The notes under the pieces are model-generated. The model had not been told where the DNA came from. It made no database searches and saw nothing but the letters and a program-made list of their open reading frames with translations. A program made the position numbers and the translations under genes. Shown here in pieces: positions 17,201 to 61,040 of a stretch of DNA of 64,000 nt (within the stretch, counting starts at the first letter, position 1; each line of letters opens with the position of its first letter). Origin of the DNA: Telmatactis stephensoni. Its lineage: Eukaryota; Cnidaria; Anthozoa; Actiniaria; Isophelliidae. The DNA is taken from contig JALIZF010001695.1 of assembly GCA_029948255.1 (NCBI GenBank), forward strand, positions 372,001 to 436,000, read 5' to 3'.

Positions 17201-20200
17201 TCTATAATTAATTGCACAGAAATTGACGCTTTCGAAATCACTGAACATAGAACTAGCTAGCTAAGATAGTTAGTTCAGTGTTTACACTATATCCGTGCAA
17301 AACTTTGTAAGAAATTGCACTAATCAAACAATAGAAAACAAAGGATCTCGCGCTATTTTGTACAATTTAGTTTAACTTTTTCACAGATATATTGTAAGCA
17401 CTCTAGTCTGAATTTTTGCAACTGCACTTGACGAGCTTTGTTGTATAAGGGAAGCTAGATCCGAATAGGCAGTTTACATGATGACGTCATTTGACTAAAC
17501 TACCAGAATGCTTTACGAATTTTCTTTCTTATTCAGATGTTTCAGATGATTATTCAGAACAGAATAGTAGAAAAAGAAAAGGGAAAAATAAAAGGATTCT
17601 GGTAGTTGTGGTCAGATGATTTTCAAGTGCTTATAACCCCTAATTAGAAATATTGATAATTATTTCTTTATGAATTGAAAAGCTGGATGGTTTAATATTC
17701 TTGAATGAGCATGTCTACTGACTGAATAATAAACATTTGAAATAAGGAGACATCAACCCAGGAATTTGCCAAATTTGCTTTTAGCTTCGTAGTAAGTGCG
17801 TTCGAGTGAAGTAGCACAGGTATTCACCATACTTTGTATTTTAGCAATAAAAATCTTTTGCAAATGCAAAACTAGTAAGATTATCATCTCACTCTAGGTT
17901 TTTTGTATATTTATCATTTCATGGTTTGACGTCACTTCATTTGCATTTTCAGATTAAAAAAAAAAAAAAGAAATGCTCAAAACGTTGGAGGGGAGATGTC
18001 TATATCCAAAAATATTAAACCATAAAGCATTATTTCCATTCATGAAGAAACGATTTTGGGATGACTCGCGTACGCTCATTACCTTTTGCCCGATAACAAC
18101 CAAAACAATTTGAAATGGTATATACACATCAGCACCGTCTAAGATTTACCTTTCGTTAGCCGTCTCTGCCTGCATCAACACGTTCTCTTCACTAAACACA
18201 TACTTGACATCTTTTGCACGAGAGTTTTTATTTTTCCTTGACAGCATGTTACCGTTCTTATCATAAACAAACTCTTCATTTCCTGCTGACGCGTACTGAT
18301 TGACTTTGTTTGTTTGATAGTTTTCTCGTTTGCCATCATCAACAATAAAAACTCGGTTTCTACGACTGTCATAGTCGTACACACGTGATCGCTTTGTCCC
18401 ATTGTTGTAATTCTCTGTCCAGCCAATCAACTGCGAGGCGGCATCATATCTAAATAACCGCTGACCATCGATGGACTTTATTTCAATAGGTCTACCTTTA
18501 ACATCGTATTTGTATTCAAACATGGACGAGACGTTGCCATCTGGTAAATAGTTTACAAGTTTGTGACGTCGTTTCGTTCCAGGGTAAAAAGTTTGTTCCA
18601 TTGAGGCGTTGTTTCCCAATACATTTTTGTAAACGTTACCACTGGAATCGTAACGAACTTTAAGAAGCGCCTTCGCACCCTCTGGTCCAGCGGTATACAC
18701 CTCTGAAAGACGATCATTGTTGTCATAGTGATAGGAAACATTGTATCCTGTGCTATTCTCGTACAAACCAATGCGCTGTCCAATGTTATTGTATCTATAC
18801 TCTATGTGGCTCCCGTCAGGGTATGTCACGCTAATAGGCTGGTTATCACGGTTGTAACGCAACGTGATTGTCCCTGCTTTGTTCGTTGCCATGATAATGT
18901 TTCCTTCAGAATCGTGTAGATAGTAAGTAGGACCGACATCGGGCACTGACTTTTTGGCCTACGATATAAGACAGCGAAATATTAAGACAGTATTCACGAT
19001 TAAATTTTCAAAATTGGTGGATCACCGATGAGTGGTGGCCATTTCCTGGGGACCATGAAAACGAGGCCGCAATTCAAATGCTTCTTCATCAAAACCAGCA
19101 TGGGTCAATTGCCCTATCGCATAATGACGTCCCAGTTTGTTTACATTGGGGATAGATGCTCAGAAACAGTGGAAATTGGGACTTATTAATATTCCTTTTC
19201 GAAGTAGAACTTCAATGTATCGAGTTTTGATATACACCTATTTCAAATTAAAAAAGGTTGTCCTCAGTTTTAATGCATACTGCATAGTGAATACTGCATA
19301 CCAAGACCGAAATGCATTGTGGATATCAAATTTTGGGTATTTTTCACAAATTTTATAAGTAGAAAAGTTGCAGAAAAAGTTTACTTAGATTCAGTTTGAG
19401 AGGAAACAGAGAATCAACATTAGTAAAGCCTCTTGTTACCCAATTACAAAATAATAATAGCCTTTTTTCAGAATGATTGGGAATTTATCATAATTACCAG
19501 TCTCCCATCAGCTCTGTACTCAAACATGATGTCCCGTCCATTACGCGTTGTTCTCCTCTTCAAGTTCCCTTTATCATCGTAGTCAAAAGTATCTTTCGTC
19601 CCGTCAGGAAATGTAGATTTGACGATTTTGTCTTTCTTGTAACTTAAATTGTATGTGGATCCAGTAGCGTCGGTGATGTTCCTGGGAATTCCATCGTCTC
19701 CAATCGAGTACTGAACTTTATCACCATTACCGTCTTCGACAATCATGATCTTTTTCTCTGTATTTAGTGTCTTTTTCTCCATTATCTTTGGATGAAAAAA
19801 TATAAATGCATTTTTAAATGTTTTCAAAAACGTCCAGGGACATATTATGAAATGAAAATTGAGAAAAAGCGAAGGAAATCCTTGTACGATCTCCATATAT
19901 TCTTGGTTTAAATAAAACCCTGTATATTCCCGACTCTCTCTCTCTCCCTAACAATTAGCAACGGACATCATATTTTGGCCCAAGATAGCACAATTGATAC
20001 AAGTTCTACCTTTTTATATTGGATAGTGTCCAAATTACTGATCCCTTATAAGCTGAAATAATTTCCTGTTAGTGACAGAGCAAAGTGTTGGAACCATTTC
20101 ATCCCTGACTTTGGATAATAATATTTGCCTTTTCGATCAGAAAAAGAACACTAAATACTGTATTTGCCATAAAAAACTGACTACGTTTATAAGCCCGACA

Positions 20201-23200
20201 TCTATAAGAAGGCGAATATGGGCACTTTTTCTAGCCCTTCGCTGTCCGTTCTATAGAGATTCCACTGTATTCTAGCCTGCGTTGCTGGCGCTCTGAGGTT
20301 TAATTTTGGGCGGAGGAAGAAATGAAAGATCGCGGTTCTTCATTTCTTCCTCCGCCCAAAAACCGCAGACCGCCAGCAACGCAGGCTAACTGTATTCAAA
20401 TAATCAACTTACATGGTCTCCATACATGAGGCTTCTAACAGCAGTAGTTTCTGTAACAAAGCTATCAGAACGAAAAGGTATCCCATCACCCCCTGTAAAC
20501 GACAGTATATTCATTGTCTCGTCAAACGTATAGGTCACGTGACTGTTATCTTCTTTATTAGTGACTTCTAGCTGGCCATTCCAATCGTGCTTGAACTTCA
20601 AAGTCTTTGATATACGACCATTCTGCGTTAAACTGACCATCTCTTCAAGAAGACCGGTGTCAGCGTTGAAAGAATAGGAGAGTTTGGCACCGTTAGGGTA
20701 GGTCACGCTTTGTATGTCGTAATCGTCCGTGTAGGAATAACTTTGGGTCTTGTCTTGGATGGTGGTGGAAATAAGGAGTGGCGTGTTTGGGTCATAGGTG
20801 TATAAGCTGGAAAGAATCCAAGCTTTGTATCAGTTAAAGCAATTTAATTTTCATTACATTTACATTTATCACAAAATGAACGTCTCATCATAATCATTAT
20901 GAAATCACTGATCTTGATAAATCTCATCAATATTTTCCTTAAAAATATAAGTATGCAAATCCAATATTAGATCAGACATATTCATCTCAACTGAGCTAGC
21001 CGGGAAAAAAAACATTCGACCTCGCTCACCAAGTCAAAATTAGTGGTTAAAGCACTGACTTGAGTACTCTAATCATGCTCAGATCTTGTCTGGAACTCGG
21101 ATTATCCAAAGTCGTAACAGAGAAAAATCAACATGACATCTAACAAACTCAGTTCACATATCATCCATTTTACCTGATTATTTCCTCGCCACTTGGTTTG
21201 ATCAAAACAGCCTTCCGTACGAGGTTTTGAGAGTTGAATTCCACACGAACTGATCCTCCCTTTGAATGTTTCATGACAGTGGGTTTTCCATCAGATGTAT
21301 ATGAAGACACAGTAATGTTTTCATCTGGTGTATTCAAACTAAGTATTGCTTTGAGTCTTTTGCTTTGTGCATCAAATACAAAAATCTCCGAGCTGTCTTT
21401 CTCAATGGAAGTGACAACAAGTTCTATTAAGAATAATATTATAAATTTAAATAAGCATTTTTTTTATTGCGCAGTAAAATCTATTTGATATTATCGAACG
21501 TGTGAACTCCTCCAAGCGAACATTCAATGTGCTATATACATATCAGTGTTCTTTCCCTCTGCAATACACTAAAAGGATTAGAAGGGAGTTGAAGCATATA
21601 ATTGCTTGTGATTTGATCTGATTTATAACCAGTTACTAGTCTTTCCTATAGTGCATTGCTTTTATTGAAATTTTGTAGTATCAAATCTTCCATAGCCGTT
21701 GATGTACCCCAACCGGCAAGATGACTTACCGTCTTCCTCCACTTTGATGTTGCCGTGTTCATCACCTAAGTAGATTCCCGGTTGTACTAGACGGAAGGTC
21801 TTTTCCTCTCTCAAAAAAATTACTGTAACCATGGTCTCATTCTTGTGAGCTATGATTGTCTCCCTGAATTAAAAAATATAGGAATCTTTTCCAGCTAACT
21901 TCTCCATTCCCGAAGTATTTTTCATACTTAAGCATAGTCACAAACAACACAGGCCAAGGGATTTGGAGGGAGGGAGGTATTTCACGCTATTCTGAGCTAG
22001 TCCAGTCCCAGACTCTCTTTCTTGCCGCTCCAGGACTCGCGGAGAAAGAGAGTCCAGTATAACTTGCATGCGCATGTGCAAAATGAGCCAATCAGATAAA
22101 AAGTTTTGTTTTGAGAGCTTGCAATATGCAAATGTAAGTGTTTGGTAGTGGTAGTGATGCGTATCGAAAAATTCACAAATACGTCTTTCACAACTGTCCA
22201 TCCGTAAATGGCCTGTAACTGCTCAAACTTTGGTAAAAGGTTATGGTTGGTTTTTCCAAGTGCATAGCTCACTGAATCAACAAATGGCTTTCCGAAATGA
22301 GACTGATATCGTGTATACAAAACACTTTCTTCTTCAGCCATCTTGAATCATTAGACGACTTTATTTAGGATTTGTAACCACGCGATCTGAATGTGTTGAT
22401 CGCGTGGTCACTAAGCTGACATGCGCATGCAAGTTATACTGGACTCTCTTTCTCCGCGAGTCCTGGAGCGGCAAGAAAGAGAGTCTGGGACTGGACTATA
22501 TTCTGAGCCAAAATTGTCAAACTTGAAAAATTCTGGTCAAATATGATAATTGACAACTAGACGTTTGATAAGTAATATATATAAAGAACTCGAGAGCGTG
22601 TTATATCGGGTCTAAAGAACCTCGCCTTCGGCTCAGTCGGATATCTATCCACCGATATAACACGTACGCTCTCTCGTGGTGAATTCACCGTAGTTAAATG
22701 TTTTGGTGAGACCGCGACCATTGTTTGTATGAGGGAGGGTATACTACTCACCACCATGGAGCAATCCAGCCGAACCCAAAAATTCCTTTTTCACGTCGTG
22801 TGGTTAATAATGGATTGTATACGCGCTCCAGCTGCAGCATCAGCAAGTTTGAGTTACTTTGATCATCAAGATCAATTGTGTCTAGTAACCTACGCCCTTT
22901 GGATAAAAAGTATGAAAATTACACAGAATGAGCGCACAATAGGGTATTGTAGAGTATGATGTTAGCCAAGAGTAAATTGACATAATTTCCTTTTCTTTCC
23001 TATTACAATTTCTGACACTTTTGGTATTTAGCATACGAATGTGCAAATACTGAACTTACCACTTAAAGCACCGTCAGCCAATTTTAGTTGGAAATCCACA
23101 AGGTCTTTTACTAGACTCACTTTGTGTCCATTGATACTCATTAACGTAGCCATACTAGAAAGCCGTTGACTCAAAGACTTTTGGGTCCTTCCAACGGAAT

Positions 23201-26200
23201 GGAGGAAATTCTTCCACACAGGCTCCCACATTCGTTTGGACACGTGGCTAGGCCTGAGTTCGTCTTTGCTTTCCATAAAGATATGTGGTTCATCATTATC
23301 AAGCAAAGAGACGATATTGAGTTTAGACCTACCAGTTCCTCCCCCTTGTAGGTGACTTGTCTGAAATATTAACCTGCCTGAGGATTTTGGTGGTATAATT
23401 CCACCAGGACCTTCCAAGGGCTGGGCAATTACAGTTATTAGTTGGTCATAAAAGCTTGGTTGTCTGCCATCTTGGACATACCGGACCAGTGTCATCTTTG
23501 TGGCACTAAACATGATGACAGGACTTTGGAGGTCTGTATCGCCGATATTTTGATAGCTTGCGATGATGTCCCCTGTGTCAGTGAGCCGTATTGCCCTGGG
23601 TCTCTGCACAGTAATCGATAACTTTCCAGGTATCCCTTCTTTAATTGTCAATGAATCGTTCATCATCGCCTCAACGCCTCTTGATTGGTCTGTTATCTTA
23701 AAGTCAAACTTTGTTCCAACTGATAAACCTTGAAGGCTGAAGGTCGCGTACAGTAATGTTGAGCTAAATCGATAAACTCTCTTTGCCTTGATTTCCGTGG
23801 ACGAATTTTTGTCTTTAGTTAACAGAGAGACCTGCAAGCTCCAACCAAACAGCGTCCCTTCCACTCTGAGGGTGACGTTTCCAAGAGCTGCAAAAGTTGA
23901 AGGTAAAATTCGTGATATTTCAAACTTTGCCAATTTTGCACAAACGTTCGACTTAACCCCAGGTGCTGGAGAAAGATCACTTCGTTCAAGCAATACATAA
24001 TAACGTCCTTTCTTTGTTGATGTCACTACAGCGTCCTGGTTGGAAGAAGTTGGGAATTTGGAGCTCGCATCGTAAAAATAAGAAGATGCTGGTTCGTTAT
24101 GTCTCAAGTACAAGTCTTGAATTGAGCTCACTACATTAATACGTGCAGTTACAATCAATGTCGTTTCAGAGGGAACATCGTTGATAATATACACAGATGT
24201 TCCTTTATCCGCTTTAAGACAACTTCCAATATTTAGAGTTGGAAATGTAACGTTGATGTTCTTTGGACCTGCTTTTATGTTGTTTCCCGGAATAGGATCT
24301 CGTATGTTACTACGGCTTTTTACAAGTCCCCGATATTGCCCCTGTTGGACAAGTGGCAAGGGTCTTTTTAAGGAGAAGGCGGTGTCCTTGTTATTTCCAT
24401 TGTTGTACGGAAGTAATGAGACAAATCCACACTTTGGTTGATCGATTTCTCTGTCCTTTATTTGCCATGTTTCGTCCTCTGAGAGATACACAGAATCGCA
24501 TTTGTAACCTGAGGCAGATTGGGTGCCATTGTTCCTGATGGTCCAGTCGACTTGGATTTCTGCGTAAGATTAAAATCGATATCAGAATACCAATAATCCT
24601 CAACTGCGAGAAGTATAGGCACAGTGGTAAATAAATAAAATAAATTCAAAAACCGTGAATCGTTGGTCGAACCTGCCATTATGCTTTAGTAGTATATCCT
24701 TTAAGAGTGTTCAATCGCATGATGCAACATGTTGGAGCAAATAATGTTGGGAGTTGTTGGCCAACATTTTTCGGAGAATTTGTGCGGACCTTGACACTTA
24801 TGATTTTTGGAATGCGTATTAATGCATTCCACATTTTACACAAACTACACATGATGTCAACGTTGTGGAAAGAACTAAACATCGCTTACCTGATCCTAAA
24901 GTAGCTGTGGTAGAAGCAGTAGATACAGACGACACAAGCAAATCAGTTCTAATAGTTTCTTGAATGCGTATCAAAACGTAGGCTATGTTGTTGTCTTCAC
25001 TGGCTTCGTTTACAAGATTACCGCTGTCCACCTCTAATAGCAGGTAATAATCACTGCTCACGATGTCATAGGGAATGAAGATGTCAACGTCTACCACAGC
25101 AGATGACTTGCCTGCGAGTGGTATATTTGTACGACGAGAAATCAATTTACGATCAAACGCATCACGAATAACGTCCTGACTCAAGTAGATAGCGTTGAAC
25201 CAGTACCCTCTAGTGGATCCATTACCAGTATTAGTCAAGTTGATAGAAACTGCATAAGGTCTTCCTCCCTGAGATTGCAAGGAAGAGTTGATAAAACTAC
25301 CTTGAAGGTCCGGTAAGGGACCAGCAAAGACGGTAGCACTTTGGGAGTACCGTTTCACAGGGATTTTTGAACCCGTTCGGTTATTAACATCAGAAAATAT
25401 GTAAAAATATATTGCTGGTTTTCCAAGGTAGCATTTGATCGTTACGTTAACACTAAAAAGATACGTTTCGTTGACACGTAAACCGCCAGTGTGGACCTTT
25501 GATGCAAGACGTGAGCCATAACTCTTCACTTCTTGTAGGTCACTGTCAGCCTTGTTGAAAGAGTAAACTTCATCAGTCCAAGAATCAACATCAGCGTCAA
25601 CTTTTCCTCCGTTGCGAACTTCGTACGACAGCACTAATGGCTCGCCGCACGTAATGTTTAGGGAAGATTTCGTCTTGATCTCCAGTAGTGGAGATGGTGT
25701 CTCTTCGATAACAAGTGGTTGAATTGCATGTTTTTTATTGTCCTGATCTGGAACACTTTCACGTAGATTACGTCTTGAATTTACATGAACATGAACGTAA
25801 AATTTACCAAATATACCTCGAGGGACTGTTACCGACGTCGTCGTAGTGTAGTCTTGCTGAGTGGAAAGCTTTGTGGAGATATTTTTTGATCCTAAACTAT
25901 AAACACCATCAACACCAGAAGCGGTTCGAGAAAGGAAAACGCTGTCTGTCCAGATTCTCGTCCCACTCATAGAGTATCCAACATTTTTGACCGTCCATCG
26001 GACAAGTAGAATTCTTGTTGACAACTCAAACTCATAAATAACTGTAAGTATCTGGAGATTAGAAAGAGGTCTCGCTCTCACTGCTAGTCGCCTTGAGGCA
26101 GAATTACTTGTATAATCGGTCTCTTTTAGTGTTTTATGCCCGTTGACGTTTAATACCAGGAAGAATTCACCATAGGCATTGTCTGGTACGCGAACAGAAG

Positions 26201-29200
26201 TTGTAACATTGTATACCCGACCAGGAAGAACACGTGGTCTAACAGAAACTTCACTAAGCTTTACAGCACTATCCAACGAGCTTGACCTTGACAAAAACAA
26301 CTGGTCATTCCACGAGTTTTCCAAGGTGCCTGCGTTGCCATGGTTTTGTACTGTCCACGCGACGTTTAAAGTTGATCCAGCGTACGCATACGATATGCCA
26401 CGGATGGCAAAATTTTGCACTACAAGGTCAGGTTCCATTCTTGGTATGAATATTTTTTTACTATGTCCATTGTTATTCGCTTTACTTTCTTCGAGAATTG
26501 CCGAGTAAAAGTCCGTCACAACAAACACGAAACCAACACCAAAACGTTCTCTTGGGACTTTGAACTTTGCAGAGGTGACCTTATATGCCGCGTCTGGGAG
26601 CAAATCATTCATTCTATTAACCTGACCAAGATTTCGCGCTTCTCTTAAAGAGAAGCTGTCAGATGAGGATAAAAATATTGTATCTACCCAAGGTGCTCCG
26701 TAACTTTTTCCTTGGCCACGATTGCGTACAGTAAAGTTGACGTAGATGTAGGTTATTTCTGGATAAGTTGTTACATAAGCGTTTACATTTTGTACAACCA
26801 AGTCTGGTAGGGTCTGGACAATCGCGATCTTCTTTTCCTTGACGTTATTATTTTTGTATAGATACTCAAAGACTTGGTTATTGATGTCTGTATGTATTGA
26901 CAATGTGTAGTCACCGGTTTTATACTTTGGAGCAACAAAGAACTTTATCTGCCTATCGTAGAAGCTTCCTGCAGGAAGAACTCCAGAAAATGCTGGAGTC
27001 GAGATTATGGTTTTAGACTTTGTTTTGAGGTTTGTGATGGACTACAAAAAAGTAGAAAATGTGGTCGTTAATCATAAAGGCGAACTTTTTCTTTCTCTGA
27101 AAGAAGGGAAAAAAAGGTCTCAGTACTTGTACCGGAACGGATATACATTCTTTGTTAGCTGCGTTGTATTTTACGTGGAGTCATTTGTTTACCTAATAGA
27201 TTAGGTCAATTGTGTCCCATACTCGGAAAACGTAGACCAATGCATTCATGCCAAATCGCACATTTTCTGAAGCCCAATTCCCGACTTTGACAACAATGAT
27301 GTGTCTTTAAAAAATGTTCGTCTGACTTACCACTTGGTCGCTCCACCAGTTGTGAAAGGGTGTTCCCGTTCCCTCATTCGTTACACGATAAAGTATTGTT
27401 GCTGTTCGTCCAGAAAAGAAACCGAACGACTGTATGGTTAAACTGCTGACCACTAGATCTGGTGGTGGAGTCAGGACAACTTTTAAAGGTGGCTTCAAAG
27501 CAAATCAAAAAGACATTTACTTTTCTGTCCAGATGGAATGGTATTAATTCTACACTGTAAAAACTGTTTGGTTGAAACTACCAATTTAATTGGTTGCAAC
27601 CAAAACAATTTGGTTGTTTTAACCAAAACAGTTTTGGTAGCGACAATATTACCAATTTGTTTTTGGTCGAAACAACCATTATATTTGGTAAAACTACCGA
27701 AACAAATCCAGCACTTATAACTGACCAATTTATTTTTGGTTAAAATGACCATTTCATTTGGTAAAATTTCAAATAAAATCCAGTAATTAAATAAAAGGAG
27801 TTTCAGGTCGAATAAAACAATACTGATTGTACTACAGTACAGTAACTATACAAGTACAAAAATGTAGTATGTGTGATACAGTACAATTGGCGCCAAAAGC
27901 CCTCTAAGTCCTCCTCACAATCGATTACAGACGTCTACATCGAGAAAAACCTGTGAAAAAACCCTTTGTCGTACGTAACTTTCTTTTGTCTTGTTTCGTT
28001 GTGTCCTTTTAGCAGTTTTTAGATCCAATAACAAAAGAAAAACATCCAACAACATCTTTTCTCTTCGAATGAATTATTAGCCAGCGTTAAGTCAAGTCAG
28101 GGGTCAACACACAGGAATCCCGTACATTTTTCACAATAAACCAATGAAAACACGGTATTTAATCACGTGGGTAATTTGAATGTCGTTGCGCGGTCATGTT
28201 GTACCGTTAAAAGTACAAGGAGGTTAGAGAGCGAATATTTCTACAAAAACCTTTATTTTGAGCCTAAAATATAGCCTACATTAATCTCAAATTGTCGGAG
28301 AAAGATTGAGAAAGTTTTAATACATGGTTCGAAAGAAGAACAAGCTTCATCGGACTAGAAATAGTCAGTTATTCTACTCTGAAGGAAAGGACGCCGAAGT
28401 CGCTGGTACCGGTAAGTTGAAATGATAAGTAATATTTACTCTACAAAAAGTCAACTTTTAAACCTTCTTATAGTCAGGAAGGTCATAAAGGAGAATCCTT
28501 TTAGGATAGCCATGTTTTGATTTCACTAGGACAGGAATATGATTGTTCTTTCGAGTAAATCAGCTCGGGTATAATAACTACGCGTAGCCTGCACATTGAG
28601 TTGTGATTATAAATGTTAACTTATTAATTAACTTCTGAAAAAAAAAACCAAAACGGTTAAAAGGAGAAATTATATACATTTAAAATCACAAAAATATGTG
28701 TGGAGTTATTGTTTATTTAATAGTCATTTTCAAATGATTACACGTGTTCGGTGTGTTTTGCTATTAAAACACTACCGACAATACACCAAATTGGTTTGAA
28801 GTTTTAGATCAAGTTTGATTAACCAAATAAGTTTACCATCATTTACTTTACTGCAGTCACAATAAATATATATGTGCTAATATGCCCATGGGTAAATGCT
28901 TGTATAAAATAAGAATTAACACCAACTTAAATAAAAACATAAAAGCTGCAAATTTTCTTTTTCAAGTAAATAAACTATGGTAAAATTTTATACCTTTGAC
29001 AATTTATTCATAATGTCCAGACTTTTTGGTGATGGGTAACACAAAGTACTTACTCATGCACAGTGATGCCAAAATAGATTGATGAATTAATTAGAATGCC
29101 TTATAAATATCAAAGTTGATATGATAAGACTTGGAGTGAAGGTCTATACACCCAATCGAAATATGGCGGCAAATTTAAATAACTATTGATTTATACTGAC

Positions 29201-45951: not shown

Positions 45952-48900
45952 GAAACTTTATTACACTTTTTCGCCTAACTACAATTGCAAATCTCGCTAC
46001 ATGTAGGTAATTTACAATTGGCTACTTGAATCGTATACAGATAATATCATTAAAATATATATATATATATAACACAAGATAATATACATAAAAATATAAC
46101 ACAATAAATCTGCTTGAATACTGGATCTAAAACTTCATCAGATCTGGATCAGACCAAGGTTTGTTTCTACAACAGAAAATATAGTAGGAAGATCTTATTG
46201 CCATCTTGGTGATGGTTTTGATAATATACTTCTGTTGTTTGCTATCAAAACTTAACTCCTCTAACATAGTTAAGAAACTGTCAGAGTCTTTAGCGAAAAC
46301 ACCAAGTGCACTAACAGACAGATTGACGAACACGGCTTTCTTGTGATATTGGCATAGATAATCAACTGTTTCTTTGTATTTTGTTCTTTTTCTAGATATA
46401 TTATTTTGAAGGTTTGACTCAAAGCCAACAGTCAGTTCGAGCACATACAGGCAGTCATTAGTAGTAGAAAGAATTAGATCAGGACGGTGCGAATCTCCAG
46501 ACAAAGTTGATGGACTAATAAAGCCAGGTATATCAGCGTATAGGGAGGAACCATTAACAGCTTGTAGAGTAGTAGCAATGAAGTGAAGAATGGAGTCGTG
46601 CCTTCAGGTGAAACGACCTTGGTCAAGATAAGATTTACACCCAGCTATTACATGGAGGAGTGATTCGGGCTTTAAACAGAACGAGCAATCAGAAGTAGGA
46701 GATAGACCCCACTTTGAGAGATTTTTTCGTGTTGGTAAAGTGTTATTGATATAGCGTATGGTAAAATTGAAAATATTCTTAGGTAAACTGGATTGAGCCG
46801 AGGACCAAATGTTACTAAGTTTCATCAGAGAGTTAGCCAAAACATTAGAAAGAAAGGACCCTTGTGAGACTAGATGATTTCGCAGTTTACACTCTTGATC
46901 AGCATGAAAATCTTTGATGACTTCTTTGGTACTTTTATAGACATCATACTGAACATTAGTGTGGCTGCTAGACGATTTCCAGAGATGGCGCACTGATTCA
47001 TTAGGTGAAAATTTTAACGCTTTGCGTAAAACTGTTTGACATTGTGTGAATTTAACAGAAGGAGGACAGATCTCTAAACCAAATTTATTACGAGGTAAGA
47101 AGACATTGCTTAAGGTGCCAGAGATAGGCAGCTCTAACCACTTCCGGACATATTTAGCTACAGCATTATCAATGTTTTCTGTTACCCAGGTTTTTGACAA
47201 ATCAGCAATAGTGAAGTGCCATGAAAGTTTAGACAGGACGTATCTACCATATAGAAGCAATTTATTTTTGGGATGAAGAGGTTTAGCGTCAATTTCTGTC
47301 ATCAGATCGTTAACGAGGCTACTTAGTTCAGCTTTATGCGTTAGACCAGACATTTCAAAGTCAAAGTATCTTCCTAAATATTTAAAACTCTCTCCAATCT
47401 TGACACAAGGAACAGAAATATTATTGATGAGTAACTTAGGAAGAACTTGAACGGACTTGGTGAGGGCTTTCTTAATACCAAACGTGACACATTTATCAAC
47501 ACGTATTATCATATTAGACCATTGGCACCACAGAGTGAAACGATTTAAGAGGTGTTGATTCTCTTGTTCTTGACCAGTGATAACCGCAGCGTCGTCGGCA
47601 AATTGGAACCAGTGAATAGGATTAAGGAGCTGGAAGGAGAAACCAAATTGACGGTATTTTGGAGCTTTGATGTGATTGATAAAGGTATTAAAGCACATAT
47701 TGAAAAGGAGTGGGCTAAGACAGTCGCCTTGAAGTACACCACGACCAACGGTAATGAAGGGGGTAGAAAAATCTGGAGTGATAATTGATGTTTGAAAGTT
47801 AGTGTATAAGCTTTGTATGATGTTATTGATGTGATCTGGGATGTGATGGTATCTAAGGATTGTCTGTATTAAGCTGTGATGAACTTCACCGAAGGCATTT
47901 TTCAGGTCAAGGAGTGTGATGATGACAGACCGTTGTTTTGAGCGAGCTTTGTTAATTACATCAGCCATCTGAGCAGTATGTTCCAAAGTTCCAGAAAGAT
48001 TTGGTGTAAATCCTTTTTGGATGTCTTGGTTAATGAAGTTATTTTTAGCGAGAAAAAAGAAAATGGCGTTACGAAGACAAGATGTGAAGATTTTTAAAGG
48101 GATAGATTCCAGTGTAATAGGACGAAAGTTTGAAGGGACATCTGTACTGTCTTTCTTGTGGATTAAGATTGTACAAGCTTTCTTCCATTCGGTTGGGACA
48201 GTTCCAGATAACCATACTTCATGAATGATTTTTGTGAGATGAGTTCGTAAGAAAGGACATCGTTTGAAACATATAATGGAGATTTGGTCAAGAGGACAAG
48301 GAGAACCAGAAGCTTTAATTTTTCGGATGATATTAGTAACTTGTTCATAAGTAGGAGGAGTGAGGTCAAACAGATTTTGTGGTTCAGCTAGACTAGGAAT
48401 CCAATTGGGAATAACAAACAGTTGATTTGGGTTGGCTGAGGTAAGAACTTTCGTGAAGTAGGACAGGCAGTCTGACATGGTAAATGATGGGAGTTCAGAG
48501 ACTTTTTTATTCATAACATTCTTGACATATCCCCAGAAATTCTTACCAATGTAGCTATCATGATCAAATGATTTCCTATTGTCTTGATTGAAATTTAGGT
48601 AGTTGCCATTACGGAGTTTGTCACGCAAGAGACGCGAAACATATTTAATTTCATGAAGGTCACCGTTTGTATTTTTGAGATGTTTCAATAATTTCTTTAG
48701 TTCCTTAGCTGTATGATCTTTGTATTTGTTAACCAGGTTTTTGTCGAAGGGCTTCTTGACATGACCAAAATTATCACAGAAATAGTTATAAATCGTTTCA
48801 TTTAATTGTTTGATGATCAAATTCAAATCTTGAGAGCTCATTGGTGGATTGAACTGGAGTATAGATTTAAAATAATCATTGGCCGTTGACCATTCTAAAT

Positions 48901-49187
48901 CACTTTTTGGTAGATTTATTCCTTGCTTTAAAGTCGGCGAGGTTCCATCATTAGTTAACATAGAAATATCGTAACCAACATTTTGAGTAGAATCATCAGA
49001 CGAATTATCAATAAACTGATCTTGTAAGTCAGAAATTAATTCTTCATTTAAACCGTTGATGACCCTACAACTTCGTTGGTGCATTTTAAGACCACGCTTG
49101 CCTTTACATGACTTGCCACAGCAACATCTCACACGATCAGTATTAGAAGCAGTAGTTGTAGATGATTGAATAACTGGCTCTGGATTA
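45951..49187 (-). mobile_element. Near-complete R2/R4 (Dong)-like LINE, minus strand, in (AAT)n target
   Basis: Single-ORF LINE of ~3.2 kb with N-terminal C2H2-type zinc finger, reverse transcriptase, CCHC knuckle and restriction-like endonuclease. Both ends abut (AAT)n. R4-clade Dong of silkworm is known to insert in TAA repeats, and the domain order and target fit that group. The 3' end is AATAAAGTTTCC|(ATT)n, identical to the truncated copy. The coding part is described separately. The 5' end may be truncated: no ATG precedes the zinc finger between the microsatellite and residue LKM. Confidence 0.85.
46127..49187 (-). pseudogene. LINE ORF: zinc finger, reverse transcriptase, endonuclease; one nonsense codon
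   Basis: Reads from the microsatellite through CCCGKSCKGKRGLKMHQRSC (C2H2 finger) to RT motifs KKACTILIHKKDSTDVPSNF/RPITLES, LLDLKNAFGEV (motif A), GVLQGDCLSPLLFN (B), FQFADDAAVI (C, FADD) and FKYLG (D/E). A CCHC knuckle follows (CSFCLKPESLLHVIAGC). At 46604-46606 the frame meets TGA between GRFT and RHDSIL; the sister copy has Trp there (WRHDS), so this is a Trp-to-stop change. Downstream, in the same frame, are HRPDLILSTTNDCLYVLELT, VGFESNL, RTKYKETV and the stop at 46127. Reverse transcription competence of the truncated product is unknown. Confidence 0.85.
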
Positions 49188-49222
<35 letters not shown>

Positions 49223-49224
49223 CG
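49188..49224. repeat. (AAT)n microsatellite at the 5' end of the LINE
   Basis: About 12 AAT units directly before the LINE's coding frame (minus strand). Confidence 0.9.
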
Positions 49225-49582
49225 TACTATAATGACCTAGACAAAGAACTGAATATGTTATTTGGTTCAAAAGTAGCAAGGTTAACAATTGAACGTTCCC
49301 AGAAATGGGTTATTTCACAGAATTGTGAAATTGTTAAGAGATTTTCGTGCGTGTAATTATGTAAACGCATGATTATACAGATATAATAGTTGAAAGAATT
49401 TTAGCTTCATAAGATATTTTTAAGGACGTGAATAATGAAAAATTTAGCATTTTTTTTTTTTTTTTTTAAGAATATGATTTACGTGTACATTTAGATATCC
49501 TGTATTTAAATCCACATTGCCTAGGCTGTGCCCGCAATGATGTCGACATATATATTGAACTATTTTACCAATAAAGTCTACC
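49225..49582. other. AT-rich spacer between microsatellites, no gene seen
   Basis: Contains a T-tract (49,450-49,467) and AT-rich sequence. It ends with ACCAATAAAGTCTACCAT just before the next (AAT)n; the AATAAAG...CCAT shape resembles a LINE 3' end, so it may be the tail of another plus-strand insertion. Confidence 0.45.
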
Positions 49583-51711: not shown

Positions 51712-51994
51712 TTAAAGTGGGACGACGATCAAATTTGAACCGTTTAGAAGGCGATTTTTCCGATTAAAAATGATAATAATACCTTCGTAAACTGTAAATC
51801 TGACGTTTAATAAAAATTGGTAAAAAAATAATACCTAAACTTTTGAGTTGAATTTCCTCTGAAAGCTGTCCGCCATTAATCCGTCTTGGCTTCTACGAGC
51901 CCGCGATCATTTGACACCCGTGACGTCAGTTACTCAACAACTGGGTTCGAATTCATGATAAAGACTGTGAAATTTTATTGATTACGGCGGGAAA

Positions 51995-53938
51995 ATGTCG
52001 AATTTCAAAGATGCTCTCCCAGAAAATGATACTGATTCTTCTGATACGTCTTCGGAGAGTTCCTACCACTCAGCAGACAGCTCATTTTTCCCATACGATC
52101 CTGATATAGAGCCGATTGCTAATGATGAAGAGGCCGCCAATTACGCTCAACAACTTTCTATCGAAGAAGAAGAAGAGCAAGTATTGCTGAGTCGTTACTC
52201 AGGAGAATGCGGTGTTGAAGAATGGTAAGTGAGAATATTTTAAAGTCGAAATACTAAGTATTGGCATGATTTTTGTTTCCAGGGTTAGATTATTTCTGAA
52301 TACTGCAGATAAATAAACCACTAGCTAGCTGCCGACTCGTAACTGAATAAATACTCCTTTACACAACCGTTGTATCGTCTATATATATCTGTTGTCTTAT
52401 TTTTGAACTAAAACCAAAGTTCCTCTTGTTATGCAGCTAGAACCACCAGTGAAGTCCAGTTCAGCTTCGATTCGTTCCTTGACAGTAATATTCTTTCACG
52501 ATCATTTCACTTCAATGCAGTGTTTGCATTTTAGAAACCGTTTGTTTTACTCTCTGCAAGTAGAGGGATTTTTTTTCTCAATCTCCTACGATTGATAAAT
52601 CTCTCTCTGCTCGCAGGGTAAGTGTTTTTCAGTCTTTATTCACAAATACACAACCGTTTATTACCACTAAGTTAATTTTAATTACTTTCATCTTTATATT
52701 CGATTGCATGTCTCAATGTCTAATTTATTCAGCAAGCTAAATATCTCATGAGATCTATAGATTCAAGAGCATTGTTTATCTATAATTATTGCCAAAATAT
52801 ATCTCAAGTCCTTCTGAACCTCAAAGGTATCAATAAAGTATATTCTGGTGTTGAAAGGGCTTATTTATGAATTACATCTCATTAGATATTTGTCAATACC
52901 TGCATAAATGTATAGGCAACCTTTCTGCAAGTGAGTGCTGTACATGAATATAAAGTAAAAGCTATATTCTTGTGGTCTAGTAAATTGCAACAAGCCTTTG
53001 ATTTGATTTGTTTTGTTGTTGTTGATTGTGGTGTTGTCAATCTTTATTCACATCGATTCATCTGTTGTTAGTTTGAGTACACAACATATATCTGTGAAAA
53101 CATCCAGATACATTAAAACTGCTAAATGCACTGCTGTGCTCCAGTGATACCCACTAGTTTGTACAAAATATTTTAATTAGACAATACATATTTAGTTCTG
53201 TTTCATGGACATTATATAGAGTGCCCTCTATTTGATGGTTGATATAAAGGGTATAGTGGTGAGATGTCTGAATACCTTATGTTCTCTCTTTGTGTTTAAG
53301 GTGTAAATGTTCCAAATGCTCTTTAGAATTGGTGATCAAACCAGAGGAGTGCAGATGCTGCAATGATTTCGACAGATGCACTGAGAAACTAGAAGAAGTT
53401 GACATTGACGATGGTTGTATCACTGATCATCCAGCATTCAATAACATATGCCTCGATGTATGGGTGTTAGAAGTAGCTGGAATAGGCTTGAAAACTAAGG
53501 CCAACAAGTCTTACACGGCCAAGCTAGATAATACTGGACAAAACCAAGCCAATTCAGAGTAAGTTCAGTTTAGATTATTGTTGATTAAAGTGTTTGCTAG
53601 AGTGCAAGCCCTATAATCTGGTACACATTCAAGTACTTACTAATTAGCACCTAAGTAATCTACTCTTCCACTTTTCCCTTTACTGGCTCACATTGTCCAT
53701 ATTTTGCTTTAGATATTACAGATCTGTTGCATATCGACAGTTCATACGTTTGGTATGGGAATATGTTGGTGCTGGCAAAAGAATACCTTTGCCATGTTGT
53801 GTATACAACAAGATAAGACAGAAATTTCCTGATGAGGATAACCACTACACTGGCTATGAAGAGGAGGAAGAGGATGTCAGCAGTGATTATGGTGACAATG
53901 ATGATGATGACACTAATGTGGAAATGGACGAAAATTGA
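51995..53938 (+). CDS. Stand-alone P2X7-receptor ballast-domain (P2XR C-terminal-like) protein, 237 aa
   Basis: Three exons, 51995-52224, 53301-53558 and 53713-53938, join in phase. The N-terminus is acidic and Ser-rich (TDSSDTSSESSYHSADSS), with QQLSIEEEEEQ before WCKCSKCSLEL. The core has the Zn-binding Cys pattern and landmarks of the P2X7 cytoplasmic ballast: WCKCSKC, EECRCCNDF, GCITDHPAFNNICLDVWVL, then RSVAYRQFIRLVWEYVG, RIPLPCCVYNKIRQKFPD and YTGYE. It ends in an acidic Asp/Glu run (DDDDTNVEMDEN). There is no P2X channel domain and no membrane segment. In vertebrates this domain binds zinc and nucleotide on the P2X7 channel; its role here is unknown (DNA/chromatin or transposase partner are inferences). 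Start chosen as the first ATG with continuous reading to the donor GTAAGT. Confidence 0.9.
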
Positions 53939-54106
53939 TGTAAAACTATTTTTAATTTATTGATAACTTATTTTTATGTAATTGTTGCTTTACTTTAAAA
54001 CACAAACTCTAAAACTGATACAAAAAAGCACAACAATGCCTGCTGTGTGAACTCTAGTTCTTAACACATAGCAGTAGAGTTACAACTTAAGTAATTCCTA
54101 GGAAAG

Positions 54107-57100
54107 TTATTCATTCTGGGGATTGCTGCTGCATTGCCCCTTCTTGTGCCCTTTGCGGGGCAGTCCACATTTTCTCCAACAAGGTGCCTTCCGGGTTTTG
54201 CTTGTGTTGCTTGTTGTGCCCTGAATCATGGCTTGCAATTCAGAATCTAAGAAATTCAGAATATATTATCAAGCACAATTTTACTTGAAACTATAAAGGG
54301 ACCTTTGGAAGTCAAGAAAAATATACACTAGGTGTATTATTGTGGTGTTTATGTGTTTTAGATTTCAATGACAGATGTTATACCTGTACATGTTGGAGCA
54401 CAAATAGTCGTTTTCATCTTCTTCCTTGCTTCATATTTGGATTTAGCCTCTTCCTTGCTTTCCTTTTCATCAAGCATAGTGTGTAGGTCATCAGGGATGT
54501 CTTGCTTTAGTTCATTTGCAAGAGATTTTAGGTCAGCCCTCGGAGTTGAGATCATAGTAGCATAGATTTCATCTACATAATCTGCAAAGTGAACAGTCAA
54601 TTAAATGTACAATTAAGTGTTCATATGGATTATGAATTTAAATAATTCAGCTTCAGTTACCATAATTCTGGTCAACTTTTAATTCCCTCACTGTAGCATC
54701 GCCACCTTTAAACTTTGGATAATCCACTGTAAGTTTATTTTTCCCATGAACATCAACTTTACTATCTCTTTTCATGTTGTTATTGAAATGTAAGGCAGAG
54801 AGAATAGTCCTAATAATAATTTAATAACAATAATAATAATGATGGTGATGATAATTATAAACTGATTTCATCATCAATTCAATTTTAAAACACTCTTATG
54901 TTATTACCTGCTGTACATCCCCAAATATGAAAAGGCCAGCATTTTAGGGGCAAACTGGTTGATAACGGAATGATAGCCCTCTAATGCACTTGTCTGGGCA
55001 ATTGGAGATGCCTTTTTTATTGCCTTCACTAGTGTTTTATTAGTAAGTGCATCACACAGTTTCCAGTATGCTTCTGATCCTGGTTTGTTATAATAGCAAA
55101 AATAAGCTTAGGAAGTCAACTACAGTAGAGTTCAAATACTAAATGTATTGAAAATACAATGTAGTTGCTATGCTAGTAGAAAATAGCACCAGTGGATAAA
55201 AACACTTGATCTTACATGTTCAGGGGTTTCAACTACGTATACTTGGAAAAATTGAATTGATTGTCACCTAATTAACAATTTCACTCACCACAGGAAACCT
55301 GAAATAAATTCAAGGAACCCAGGATAGGGAAATATGGGTATCAAAGCTCACACAGCTCTCTGGAAAAGTGAGTCCTGTAAAAATGAAATAGGGAAATCAA
55401 AGGAACTACTATCAAAAACACTTGCTCTCTTATTTAATTAATTATCTTTTGAAATACTTTTATTTTCATCAGAAAATTTGAAAGGGAACATTGTTGTTTG
55501 AATTTTTAAAAGATCTCACTTTCCCAGCATGCTTTGTGCTAGAATTTCAAGCTCATGCACTATTGTTGCGCTGTTATTTTTTGTGTTTGAATGATAATGC
55601 TATTGACTTATTTGGAGGTTACCTTTAGTTAACCACAGACGAGGAATGGTGATTGCTGCATGAGCACACTTGTTAAAGAGTTTGTTGGGAATGTCCTTGT
55701 GCACATTGATGATGTGGTGTAGGAATGCATGGAATTTTGCTATAATGACATTTTCAAGCTTGGGTTGAGTGGAGGTGACAGACCAGTAAAAATGACGAAC
55801 ACATGCTTTCCTCCATCTTCCAATAGCCTCACAGCCTTTCTCCTTACTTAGTTTGATAAGAGTTTTTTGGATTTCTAAAAAAAGAGGCTAATGTTGGTTA
55901 TAGAGAAACAGTAAATAATTTTGAAAAGCATTCCAGAAATAAAAATGTAAGCAAACAAACAAATTGAATATGTACTTTTTCCAATATGCCATAAGTCAAA
56001 GAAATGGTCTATGACTGGCTTTCCCAATGCTTTGCATTTTTTAGGACATTCTACTCTCATCCACTTTGCAATGCTTTTGTGACGATCTGATATGAATGTC
56101 TTGATGATTATGTCTGTGGCAAGTAAGAATGTGAATGCCTTTTGATGGGCATCAAACTCCATATTAGTAGAGCTTCCACACTGATTAGCCTAATAACAAA
56201 AGAAAGGAAACTTGACAATACATCATTTACATAAACAGAAATCTTTTCACTTATCATTTTCATTCATGTCAACTTTCAAGTGATTTTACCACATTTTTGA
56301 TTAACTTACAAATGTATCATAGTATAAAGAAGTAAAGCATTTGGGCCTTTGCAAGAACAGACCATGTACCCATGTCAATCTAAAGACTTTGCTCAGTGAG
56401 GGGGAAAAACTATCAAGAATATATAACCACAGTAAGATTTAGTAACTCATACAGATTTTCAAGTCTCAAGCAATAGCATTGTAACATGTTACATTCAGGT
56501 TTTAGCTTATATATAGCTGCATAAGCCCTATTTTGATAATAAGAAGCAAAAACCTTACAAATAATTTGTCAGGTTTTTAAGCAAAATTGGGCTTATACAG
56601 CTACAAGCTAAAACCTGAATATAACATGCTACATTAAAGAAAATTCCTATTTAGCTAAGTGAGGATGCCAGCTAGGAAAGTATAGGCATATCTTCTTTCC
56701 TGGGATCCTCACTTAGCTAAATAGGAAGTTCTTTTATTAACACGGTCATGACCAGGTTCTCAGGTCAAGATGCCTTACTACATGTATATTAAAATCAACT
56801 TGCTTTAAATTTGCCCTACATTTACCTGCACAAGTACAATATGAATAATCAATCCAACTGTACAACAAAATATGCTGTAAGTTCCATATTTAGCTGAATG
56901 ACCCATCGAGTCATGTCTTCCATCCCCAGCTATCACAACTTCTTTGTCTTTCAATGAATCAATAATTTTTTGTTGATATGTTCTCCAAAACTTGACAATA
57001 GTTGGGACAAGAATGTGCCTTTGATGATAATAGTAAGTTGGATGATGATAGATGAGAAGACCCATATGACGAAATACCAGCATTACTTTTTTGACAGAAG

Positions 57101-58938
57101 CTCCCGCACATAGAATGGCAAAACTCAAAAGAAGATTGCCAGCAGGAAATTTGCCAAGGAGATTGGGCTGACTGCTCCAAGTGTAGATACCATTGCATAT
57201 ATGGCATTTGGTTGTAATGGATATCATTGTTCCAAAGTGGCTTATGTCAACCTCAGGATTAGAACAAGAAAAGCACAAGTGGCAGGTTTGAAATAAAATT
57301 AACAATTTGGAAAGGAAGACTATTCCTTTTGGCTCTTTCTGGCAGTTTGATTCTTTAAATTCAATTCTATGATGAAAATTAAAATATTCATGTCAACAGA
57401 TGCATGCATAAAGAGTATACATTATTTATGAAAAAATTATTATAACCTTGATTTTTTTTCATCAACATCATCATCTCCCAATTTTTGACCTGCATCATTC
57501 TCATCCGTTTCAGACCATGTTGGATCAAGCTCAGGGTTTTTATCTACTTCTTCCTCATATTCCTCATCATCTTCACTCATGACAGTATCAAAATGTGGTG
57601 TAGAATCTTCAGAATCTTCAGTCTGAGTTCCTAATGTATATCAGAGAGAAAATTAGAGAACTGCGAAGACCTGAATATGATATCAACAGAAACTCACCAA
57701 CTGATTCTCCTATAGCTTTGTCAAATGTCTGTTGAAATATTTGGGCCCACGAGATCTGATTTGACGCCATCTTCTTCTCCTGTCTCAACAACTGCCTTTG
57801 AAGATACTTTTTTTCTTTTTTCAATATTTCACAGTCAGGGCAAGGAGTACTTGGTTCTGAAGTCGCTGTCAAATTATTTAGGGTACTCTGAAAACATAAA
57901 GGAGGACTTAAAAGAAAAAAATTGAATGCACAAAGTTGTTGGTGCGAAATTGCTCACTTGTGTTTGCACTTGTTCGCAAGCGGCTGGGTTTTCGTGAGGG
58001 CTACATTGTGTTTCTTGCAAAGGGTTTGTGATGGTCCTATCGACTGAAGAGACCTGCTCAATCTGGAGAGAAACAAAAACGATCAAGATTTCAGTAACAC
58101 GTACCTCTCACAGTATCCATATCATATTTTCATTCCAATCCTTATTTTTTAAATGTATATAAATAAAAAAATCTTTAACCTCACTAAAGACGAATTCATT
58201 TGTTGCAGAAACTTGTTGATTCAAGTGTGTTTCAACTTGTTCACAATCAACCGGGTGATTATCAAGGCTACGTTGTGCGGTATCTTGGGCAGGGTTTGTG
58301 ATAGTATTATGGACAGACACAGACTTATCCTGGAGAAAAACAAAAAAAATAACTAAATAATGTTTATTTGGAACTCAATTACGAACTAAAATTTACAAAA
58401 GCAAAATTGCATACCACAGTGTTACTCTCATTTGCTACGGAATCATTTGATTGTGAAAATCGTTCAGCAAGCAACTCTTTGATTTCCTTTCAAATCAAAA
58501 CAGAATCAAAAGTAAATTTTAATTTTATTGTTGGTAATAAAATCTTCCCTGCATTACAAGATAAATGTATACAGAATAATGACATGTATGCATGGCGCCA
58601 CGTGAATAAATTCTCACCTTTCGTCGACGTCGAGCAGTTCTAGCAGAGCTGGAGCCTAGTTGAGTTTTATCCTTTGTCCAGATTGTAGGTATGGATCCCG
58701 GTTTTAAAAACCGTTTGAAGCCGTCCACATGCAAAGCTTTTTCGAAGCAGTGCGGCTCAAAGTGCTCCGAACAAACTACGAACCTTCCTTGCGGGTTGAA
58801 GTTCGCCCGGTTTGTTCTCACGAACCTCACCCATGCATTTCGCACACTTTTTGCAAGTGGACTGATGTGCAAAGATATTCCCAAAGATTGTTGGGACGTA
58901 TTGCTACATCCTTGTACCACACAGCGGCTTCCTGGCAT
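54107..58938 (-). CDS. THAP-domain Kolobok-type DDE transposase, 13 exons, 895 aa
   Basis: Exons: 58938-58618, 58486-58415, 58329-58180, 58062-57958, 57887-57698, 57630-57447, 57366-56826, 56189-55976, 55874-55623, 55079-54908, 54809-54661, 54581-54384, 54246-54107; all phases agree. Exon 1 is a THAP zinc finger (MPGSRCVVQGCSN, then VVCSEHF, then SIPTIW). Exons 3 and 4 are diverged duplicates. Exon 5 is coiled coil (CPDCEILKKEKKYLQRQLLR). Exon 6 is acidic. Exon 7 has two CxxC pairs and the first Asp (IAGDGRHDSMGHSAKYGTY). Exon 8 has the second Asp (FISDRHKSIAKW, HFFDLWHIGK) and exon 10 the Glu (SALEGYHSVINQFAPK). Exon 13 ends with a knuckle (CWRKCGLPRKGHKKGQC). The function is cut-and-paste transposition at TTAA; THAP presumably reads the ends. 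Confidence 0.92.
56435..56725. repeat. Two adjacent hairpins in transposase intron 7
   Basis: One pairs GTTACATTCAGGTTTTAGCT...AATAAGCCC with its complement ending CTGAATATAACATG (about 56,485-56,632). The next pairs TTCCTATTTAGCTAAGTGAG with CTCACTTAGCTAAATAGGAA (about 56,643-56,728). They may be MITEs inserted in the intron. Confidence 0.65.
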
Positions 58939-59251
58939 TATTTTCGAGAAAAAAACTCCAAGTACAGAGCATTTACGTGTGACAACTATTCTGTTTGTTT
59001 AAAAAATTAGCCATGAGGATTCGATGTGTTGAGTAACTGACGTCACACCCTTCAACTTATTAGTTGCCAATCCTCTCACGGCCAGACACAGTTTGAATAA
59101 TGGCGGCAAACGAAAGCAGAGGGAAAAAGCGATTTTTGAGGACGTTCTTTTTATCGTACGATAAAACCGTTATGACACGTTAATATATATACTATAAGGA
59201 TGACAAAAATTAAAAACCCAACAATGGCGTCAATTTGATCGTCGTCCCACT

Positions 59252-60430
59252 TTAATATTTAACACTCTTCTACACTGTGTATTAAAGTGTCATGTAGTTG
59301 TACAAAGTAATCATGTCACTTCTGTTTACAACACTTTTTGATGCCCGAAACAATAGCACAAAGACCTTGAATATACTTGAGTTCATTTTGGTGTGTTAAT
59401 AAATACAGGGGGAAATTATGACAACAATATATAGCTTTAATATTCACTTACCAATTACAAGGAATTTGAAGAAAGCTGGTCATCATATATTGTGAATCGA
59501 AATCTAGAATAACAAAATAAAAGAGTTCCACACTCAATAGGATTATTTGAAAGCAACGTAGTCGTGATAGGCTTTCAAGATATAATAGTATCCTCTCGGA
59601 TCATGTTTATTTACGACTGTTGTCGAACTTTTCCTTAAGAAAACACTAGAAACTTGCTCCTTTGGAAACCACAAAACTATACATTACTAGGGTATTAAAA
59701 GGGAAATGTCCCAGTTAAGAAAAGAGCGTTTATTTACCCTGTGAGCAAAGAGATTTCGGCTCTGGGATTCTGAACTCTTTCTCCCGAAAGCTCGAAGGTC
59801 AATTTCGAAAATTTGCTAAAGTACGAACATAAAAGCTCAACGAGTCCGAGCTTTCCTTCACAAGTCAAAATGTAAATTAATAAATAAACAATTTTTCTTA
59901 TGTTAAGTATCTAAAGAATCAAAAATACAATTAATTACAGTTAGTTTACTTACTATTTTGAAGTAATCGTAGCACAGACAGCACAATAAATATCCGCCGC
60001 CATTTGTCGATCGCTTCTTCTCTCCATTGCGATAAAATACGAAGGTTTTATGCATCAAAACAATAACATTTTTGAAGAAAAACGTCTCTTAACTTGTCGC
60101 TCTTCGTTTAACAAGAATAAAAATCATTTTCTAGCACAGAAGAAGAAATTTTCGCTTCACAACTTGTCCAACACTCCTCGCTTCAACAGTTTCAACTGAA
60201 AATGGCCGCCACGCGCCAAGCAATTCAAACATGTCACATGATAGCATACGGTGCTTTCATTGGTCAATCGATAATCCCAAGATTAGCCACCAGTTTCCCT
60301 CAGATTTACAGTTATGGATTGCATGGCTAGAAAATTTGTATTTATTGTTATTATACTTTTGTCTCTCGGCCTTTTTCGATTTATCTATTTTTTTTTTTGC
60401 AAACGAAATAAAATCAACAAAGCAAAGTTT
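59252..60430. other. Interior of the CACTA-like element, right part; no gene seen
   Basis: AT-rich with two GC-richer islands containing GCCGCCATTT and AAAATGGCCGCCA (near 59,993 and 60,198). These resemble YY1/initiator-like promoter words, possibly the promoter zone of the outer element. No coding sequence recognised. Confidence 0.4.
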
Positions 60431-61040
60431 GCTACTTATGTAAACCAATAGCAAATTCGGAGCACCAGATTTGCAGTATAGCAAAAGTGTAGCAAATTTA
60501 ATCCAAAAGTACAAATTTACCAATACGCAAATCTACAGCAAATATCAGCCAAACTCAGTAATTGCGTTACATTTGCTAGGTTTGTAAACGTGGAGTTTAC
60601 ATCAATTTTGCTACTAGTGTAAACCAATAGCAAATTCAGAGCACCAGATTTGCAAATGTGTAGCAAATTTAATGCAAAAGTACAATTTTACCTGGCTACG
60701 CAAATCTACACCAAATATTAGCCAAATTCGGTAATTGCGTTACATTTGCTACAGTCGGAAATGTGGAGTTTACATCAATTTTGCTACTTAAGTAAACTAA
60801 TAGCAAATTCAAAGCACCAGATTTGCAGTATAGCAAAAGTGTAGCAAATTTAATCCAAAAGTAACATTTACCTGCCTATGCAAATCTATAGCAAATATGA
60901 GTCAAACTCAGTAATTGCGTTACATTTGCTAGATTTGTAAACTTAGAGTTTACGTCAATTTTGCTACTCGTGTAAACCAATAGCAAATTTGGAGCACCAG
61001 ATTTGCTCTGTATTTGCTCATTATGTAAACTTGAGCAAAT
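60431..61040. repeat. Right subterminal repeat zone of the CACTA-like element
   Basis: At least three tandem units of ~170-180 bp, each with CCAATAGCAAATTCGGAGCA-type, CCAGATTTGCAGTATAGCAA-type and GTAATTGCGTTACATTTGCT words. Unit starts lie near 60,446, 60,626 and 60,799, with a partial unit near 60,977. Confidence 0.85.

Follow-up and report, generated by a model that had tools for sequence, protein, structure and literature searches.

A 64,000-nucleotide stretch of the genome of the actiniarian Telmatactis stephensoni (contig JALIZF010001695.1; hereafter the window) contains a 7,536-bp element that we read as a complete, probably recently mobilized Kolobok-type DNA transposon. Its second gene, KolX, encodes a homologue of the cytoplasmic ballast domain of the P2X7 receptor and likely supplies an accessory protein of the transposase; we place the probability of this reading at roughly 0.87. 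Directly observed are the element's ends, its two facing genes, four copies that occupy different TTAA sites and all keep KolX, and the pairing of the two genes across distant families. The main idea, that the P2X7 tail came from a transposon gene, is already in print (Kojima and Bao 2022, PMC9587614); what is new here is another Kolobok family, in an anthozoan.

An intact two-gene Kolobok element and its copies

The element is bounded by perfect 20-bp terminal inverted repeats (TIRs) with a TTAA on each side. Another inverted pair, likewise perfect and 20 bp long, sits ~200 bp inward from each end; these subterminal repeats are putative transposase binding sites. KolX, on the plus strand, encodes 237 amino acids in three predicted exons separated by GT/AG introns. 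Facing it on the minus strand, the transposase gene runs from 58938 to 54107 in 13 predicted exons, also separated by GT/AG introns, and encodes 895 amino acids with no internal stop. An earlier note on this DNA had claimed the TIRs, the TTAA flanks, and the two convergent genes, and its coordinates were reproduced exactly. All exon limits listed below, for both genes, are sequence-based predictions.

51716..59251, no strand: complete Kolobok (Kol0-type) DNA transposon, from its TIRs, TTAA, two intact predicted genes, and near-identical copies elsewhere
51712..51715, no strand: TTAA target-site duplication, left; also in copies L009, L010, and L011
59252..59255, no strand: TTAA target-site duplication, right; also in L009, L010, and L011
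51716..51735, plus: left terminal inverted repeat, 20 bp, first letters AG
59232..59251, minus: right terminal inverted repeat, 20 bp, perfect
51920..51939, plus: subterminal inverted repeat, 20 bp
59027..59046, minus: subterminal inverted repeat, mirror copy
51995..52224, plus: KolX exon 1, acidic and serine-rich N-terminus
53301..53558, plus: KolX exon 2, six zinc-site cysteines (gene model, Pfam, alignment)
53713..53938, plus: KolX exon 3, AYRQF helix, LPCC..IR..F motif, acidic tail, and stop (gene model, alignment)
58618..58938, minus: transposase exon 1, THAP DNA-binding domain (Pfam THAP, E 6.5e-15)
57447..58486, minus: transposase exons 2–6, with exons 3 and 4 inside a 71% identical tandem duplicate
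56826..57366, minus: transposase exon 7, first catalytic aspartate motif GDGRHDS
56480..56736, no strand: nested palindromic repeat inside the long transposase intron
55976..56189, minus: transposase exon 8, SDRH (second D) and DLWH (DxxH signature)
55623..55874, minus: transposase exon 9, insertion domain with Cys/His
54908..55079, minus: transposase exon 10, catalytic glutamate, ALEGYHS
54107..54809, minus: transposase exons 11–13, C-terminal CxxC..HxxxxC motif

Kolobok elements target TTAA and, unlike piggyBac, carry 5'-RR...YY-3' ends; in the Kol0 lineage the second protein, named KolX, resembles human P2X7 residues 476–595, and lineages that lack KolX exist (Kojima and Bao 2022, PMC9587614). 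In the present family, TTAA flanks both ends of the window element and of three further copies (L009, L010, and L011), the termini read AG...CT, the transposase carries a DDE triad with DxxH between the second D and E, and the second gene has P2X7 ballast homology. By these sequence features the element fits the Kol0 type of the Kolobok superfamily, with Kol0 compared by its published description. It shares TTAA, RR...YY ends, a DxxH DDE transposase, and KolX with the Kolobok-1_XT type; it differs in being an anthozoan family, absent from the parts of the main paper compared, and it adds four near-identical full copies and a genome-wide count of the facing gene order (PMC9587614). The earlier note had described the ballast gene as cargo, which was wrong: Kol0-type Kolobok elements normally carry KolX as their second gene, as published in 2022 (PMC9587614).

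The catalytic motifs SDRH, DLWH, and ALEGYHS occur in order, and D286, D316, and H319 are invariant, and E440 nearly so, across 31 aligned proteins. Most Kolobok lineages carry a Cys/His finger between DxxH and E (PMC9587614); C392 and H394, nearly invariant in the same alignment, are candidate residues of such a finger.

We then examined copies in the same genome (483.5 Mb in 1,782 contigs), counting them by the element's left end. Candidates were scored for 40 of 150 places with the left end, 150 of 262 with the window transposase exon, 150 of 365 with KolX, and 150 of 172 with an exon of the distant family L023; the resulting counts are lower bounds. Nine of the 40 left-end places, the window included, match at ≥89% and 31 at 80–82%; the eight other close places were fetched together with five stretches around the 80–82% matches. 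The three full-length copies among them, L009, L010, and L011, are respectively 99.91, 99.84, and 99.92% identical to the window element. TTAA flanks each of the four full copies at both ends; the surrounding sequences are mutually dissimilar, the KolX coding sequence is identical in all four, and each of the other three differs from the window element by a single transposase amino acid. The element likely moved recently, and the family has apparently been active in recent times.

Other copies are older or reduced. L012, L013, and L014 show 93–97% identity where they align with the element; of these, L012 and L013 carry ~1 kb of additional sequence near the left end, their right parts lying beyond the fetched stretches, and L014 keeps both ends with internal transposase parts lost. 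In L015 and L016 the match is confined to the first 730 bp, at 87–88%. Five of the 80–82% matches were read, L017–L020 and L021. L017–L020 (contigs C1054, C311, C296, and C8) are ~680 bp long and consist of Kolobok-like ends only, ~80% identical to those of the window element, with TTAA on both sides; they look like nonautonomous derivatives.

The ratio of nonsynonymous to synonymous substitution rates (dN/dS) was 0.26 and 0.39 for KolX versus 0.41 and 0.39 for the transposase (17–35 changes per comparison). On these ratios, KolX is under constraint similar to that of the transposase. For KolX exon 1 only, the ratios were 0.31 in L015 and 0.44 in L016, with one in-frame stop in each.

Pairing of KolX and transposase

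The KolX protein search of the genome listed 150 of 157 matches, which form 103 clusters. Two transposase exons, from the window and from L023, gave 150 listed matches each and together 162 clusters; 86 of the 150 L023-exon places were entered, the other 64 overlapping window-exon clusters. A convergent transposase exon lies within 20 kb of 81 of the 103 KolX clusters and within 10 kb of 79, with a median gap of 2.9 kb; a recurrent convergent arrangement within ~10 kb is what the earlier note had proposed to look for. Among the remaining clusters, one has a divergent exon only, none has a tandem one, and 21 have no transposase exon. If places were spread evenly, chance would yield ~1.4 convergent pairs versus the 81 observed, and wider merging of neighboring matches left 80 of 101 or 78 of 99 KolX clusters paired. 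The broader proposal that stand-alone ballast genes may be transposon genes is supported in this genome, where most ballast-like loci sit beside Kolobok transposases.

Clusters classed as unpaired numbered 40 by the first count and 21 after the second exon search. Reading four of the initial 40 loci revealed transposases of another lineage in two. Those read among the 21 were C862, C357, C724, two C430 copies, C101, and C470. C862 has a convergent transposase visible in the DNA and C357 has transposase remnants; no transposase was found in the stretches read for C724 and the first C430 copy; and C101 and C470 hold the element's first 730 bp only, within the 9 kb fetched. The C430 locus (L025) carries two similar KolX genes in the same direction (218–944 and 5555–6001), ~5.3 kb apart. 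It has no transposase match in 6 kb, the second copy's downstream side lying outside the stretch read; these genes are possibly host or orphan copies.

The identities of KolX and of its partner transposase to the window proteins covary (Spearman 0.79 for 56 pairs; 0.63 for 36 distinct value pairs). The 56 pairs were picked from two match tables, excluding those matched by another exon only; related copies were counted separately, which makes the p-value of the correlation too small. Because the identities of both genes rise and fall together, this pattern argues for long joint inheritance of KolX and transposase, with the proviso that related copies are not independent.

The KolX sequence query matched 17 proteins, the named ones all cnidarian and the best (65% identical) from the sea anemone Actinostola; a profile search widened the set to 60. 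The transposase core query matched 57 proteins, the best 74% identical, from the coral Oculina, with the cnidarian 912-residue THAP protein P0020 at 73%; fish, a mussel, and a tick supplied further relatives. For the alignments we selected longer proteins: 13 of the 17 KolX matches plus the window's KolX, 27 of the 60 profile matches, and 31 of the 57 transposase matches. Acropora cervicornis has a KolX protein and a transposase with the locus tags P5673_029831 and P5673_029832; as the tags are consecutive and the contigs equally long, the two most likely share one contig. Actinostola has a KolX fragment (QZH41_013829) and a transposase (QZH41_013825) four tags apart on equally long contigs, 74% and 52% identical to the window proteins, respectively; the two may belong to different elements. 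KolX pattern scans matched 52 stretches in viral contigs and 15 in bacterial and archaeal genomes, none of them confirmed.

Two coral gene models, P0089 and P0092, have a KolX-like part fused to other sequence. Pfam gave a subthreshold CUB match for P0092 and no family for the C-terminal half of P0089. The models are possibly parallel host captures or gene-model errors, two cases that cannot be told apart here.

KolX, the P2X7 ballast, and rival explanations

The earlier note's 237-residue ballast-like protein is borne out by a match to Pfam P2RX7_C (E 1.6e-10; 41.6 bits, cutoff 23.5). Its profile retrieved the rat P2X7 structure 6u9v, whereas the single KolX sequence gave no PDB match; a fold comparison of the predicted KolX ranked P2X7 at the top, although from a weak model. 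With the rat structure and P2RX7_C, KolX shares seven zinc-site cysteines, AYR, LPxC..IR..F, R546, and R578; it differs in having no channel attached, in lying inside a transposon, and in the absence of three of five guanosine diphosphate (GDP)-contact residues. We saw no ballast–channel fusion for the window KolX, which is a separate 237-residue gene between TIRs. Six of the zinc-site cysteines are kept in 27 of 27 aligned sequences and the seventh in 25, with the zinc sites assigned from our alignment. The ballast has seven zinc-coordinating cysteines (PMC9587614). The GDP contacts compared were R546, H547, R574, R578, and K583 (PMC7016195). R546 is kept in 25 of 27 sequences and R578 in 26, whereas H547 and K583 are absent from all 27 and R574 is replaced by Tyr in 26 (one gap). 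With only two of the five listed contacts kept, guanine-nucleotide binding by KolX is possible but unproven.

In the preferred reading, the THAP domain would bind the element's ends, the DDE core would cut and join at TTAA, and KolX, a predicted zinc binder with acidic ends, would help assemble or regulate the transposase complex. Candidate roles for KolX are guanosine triphosphate (GTP) binding, chaperoning of the transposase through the acidic ends, and action on host chromatin. KolX could instead be a passenger, spread along with the transposon and retained for a host role or against host silencing rather than for cut-and-paste. The 21 clusters without a detected transposase, one copy that retains a stop-free KolX beside a damaged transposase, and zebrafish Nanor, a host-expressed relative (PMC7016195, PMC9587614) that has been proposed as a domesticated KolX (PMC9587614), are consistent with a passenger. 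Yet the facing order persists in families in which exon 7 of the transposase shares only ~36–66% identity with the window's, and both genes diverge together; we consider a passenger unlikely. A guanine-nucleotide-binding partner, the in trans equivalent of the built-in GTP domain of P-element transposase, is rather improbable. It draws on the binding of GDP/GTP by the P2X7 ballast (PMC7016195, PMC9859053), on the C/DxxH signature common to Kolobok and P (PMC9587614), and on the P-element transposase (THAP plus DDE), which needs GTP in an insertion between the second D and E (PMC7776569). That insertion spans 228 residues in P (D303–E531) versus 154 in Kolobok (D286–E440 of P0018), and the P element/THAP9 system has an 8-bp target duplication and its GTP domain built in (PMC7776569), whereas the window element has TTAA and a separate KolX protein. 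The further step, in which KolX would be the guanine-nucleotide-sensing Kolobok subunit, the P2X7 GDP pocket a leftover of transposon chemistry, and the tail a domesticated transposition cofactor, is distinctly improbable.

The direction of transfer matters as well. Kojima and Bao report the ballast fold for KolX and state that P2X7 originated when a P2X4-like gene fused with KolX (PMC9587614); the literature searched contained no report of a KolX–P2X7 link besides theirs. The derivation of the P2X7 tail from KolX is those authors' inference; our profile match and weak fold comparison fit it but do not prove it. In the reverse scenario, Kolobok would have acquired a preexisting animal ballast gene; the KolX-less lineages imply that KolX joined at some time from somewhere (PMC9587614). 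P2X7 itself is an unlikely donor: reports of a ballast attached to a channel are confined to vertebrates, whereas the stand-alone genes extend to sponges and cnidarians (PMC7016195). An older, nontransposon donor is conceivable, and overall we regard the reverse direction as very improbable. The earlier note had taken copies without the ballast gene as the sign of chance capture in one transposon copy; instead, the three other full copies carry KolX. Together with the 81 paired clusters, these near-identical KolX-bearing copies rule out single-copy capture, to which we give almost no weight.

Nanor and the stand-alone ZCD proteins described by Rump et al. (2020, PMC7016195) are, like KolX, short, with a ballast and a variable N-terminus. 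That paper reports fewer than 10 stand-alone ballast genes per species and no large families, whereas one genome here has ~100 loci, most adjoining Kolobok transposases; its main text makes no mention of transposons. It also describes a tick protein in which a THAP-like ("TAHP") domain adjoins a ballast (PMC7016195); in our reading, annotating a Kolobok pair as a single gene would produce such a protein.

Neighboring features and implications

Several features lie outside the element. In the window, a 901-codon open frame at 46607–49309 (minus strand) near long trinucleotide microsatellites is presumably a non-LTR retrotransposon reverse transcriptase, and we take the minus-strand exons at 18149–21463 and 24822–27041, with RHS/YD-like and CARDB-like repeats, to belong to a large secreted or surface protein. 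A tandem repeat at 60425–61006 has copies ~175–180 bp apart that are 83–90% identical. The minisatellite at 13415–14130 has six overlapping open frames, with peptides of the NQPTHPP and WLVGGWVG types, and is a low-complexity trap for gene finders. Beside the truncated Kolobok on C357, open frames at L024:2585–5001 presumably encode a lambda-exonuclease-type nuclease and a PHD-like zinc-finger protein.

The pairing data provide independent, genome-wide support for the 2022 claim about the tail of a medically important receptor. Stand-alone "P2X7-like" animal genes should be reread, as most adjoin transposases in this genome. With an intact two-gene element and several near-identical copies at hand, the job of the ballast's ancestor becomes directly testable.

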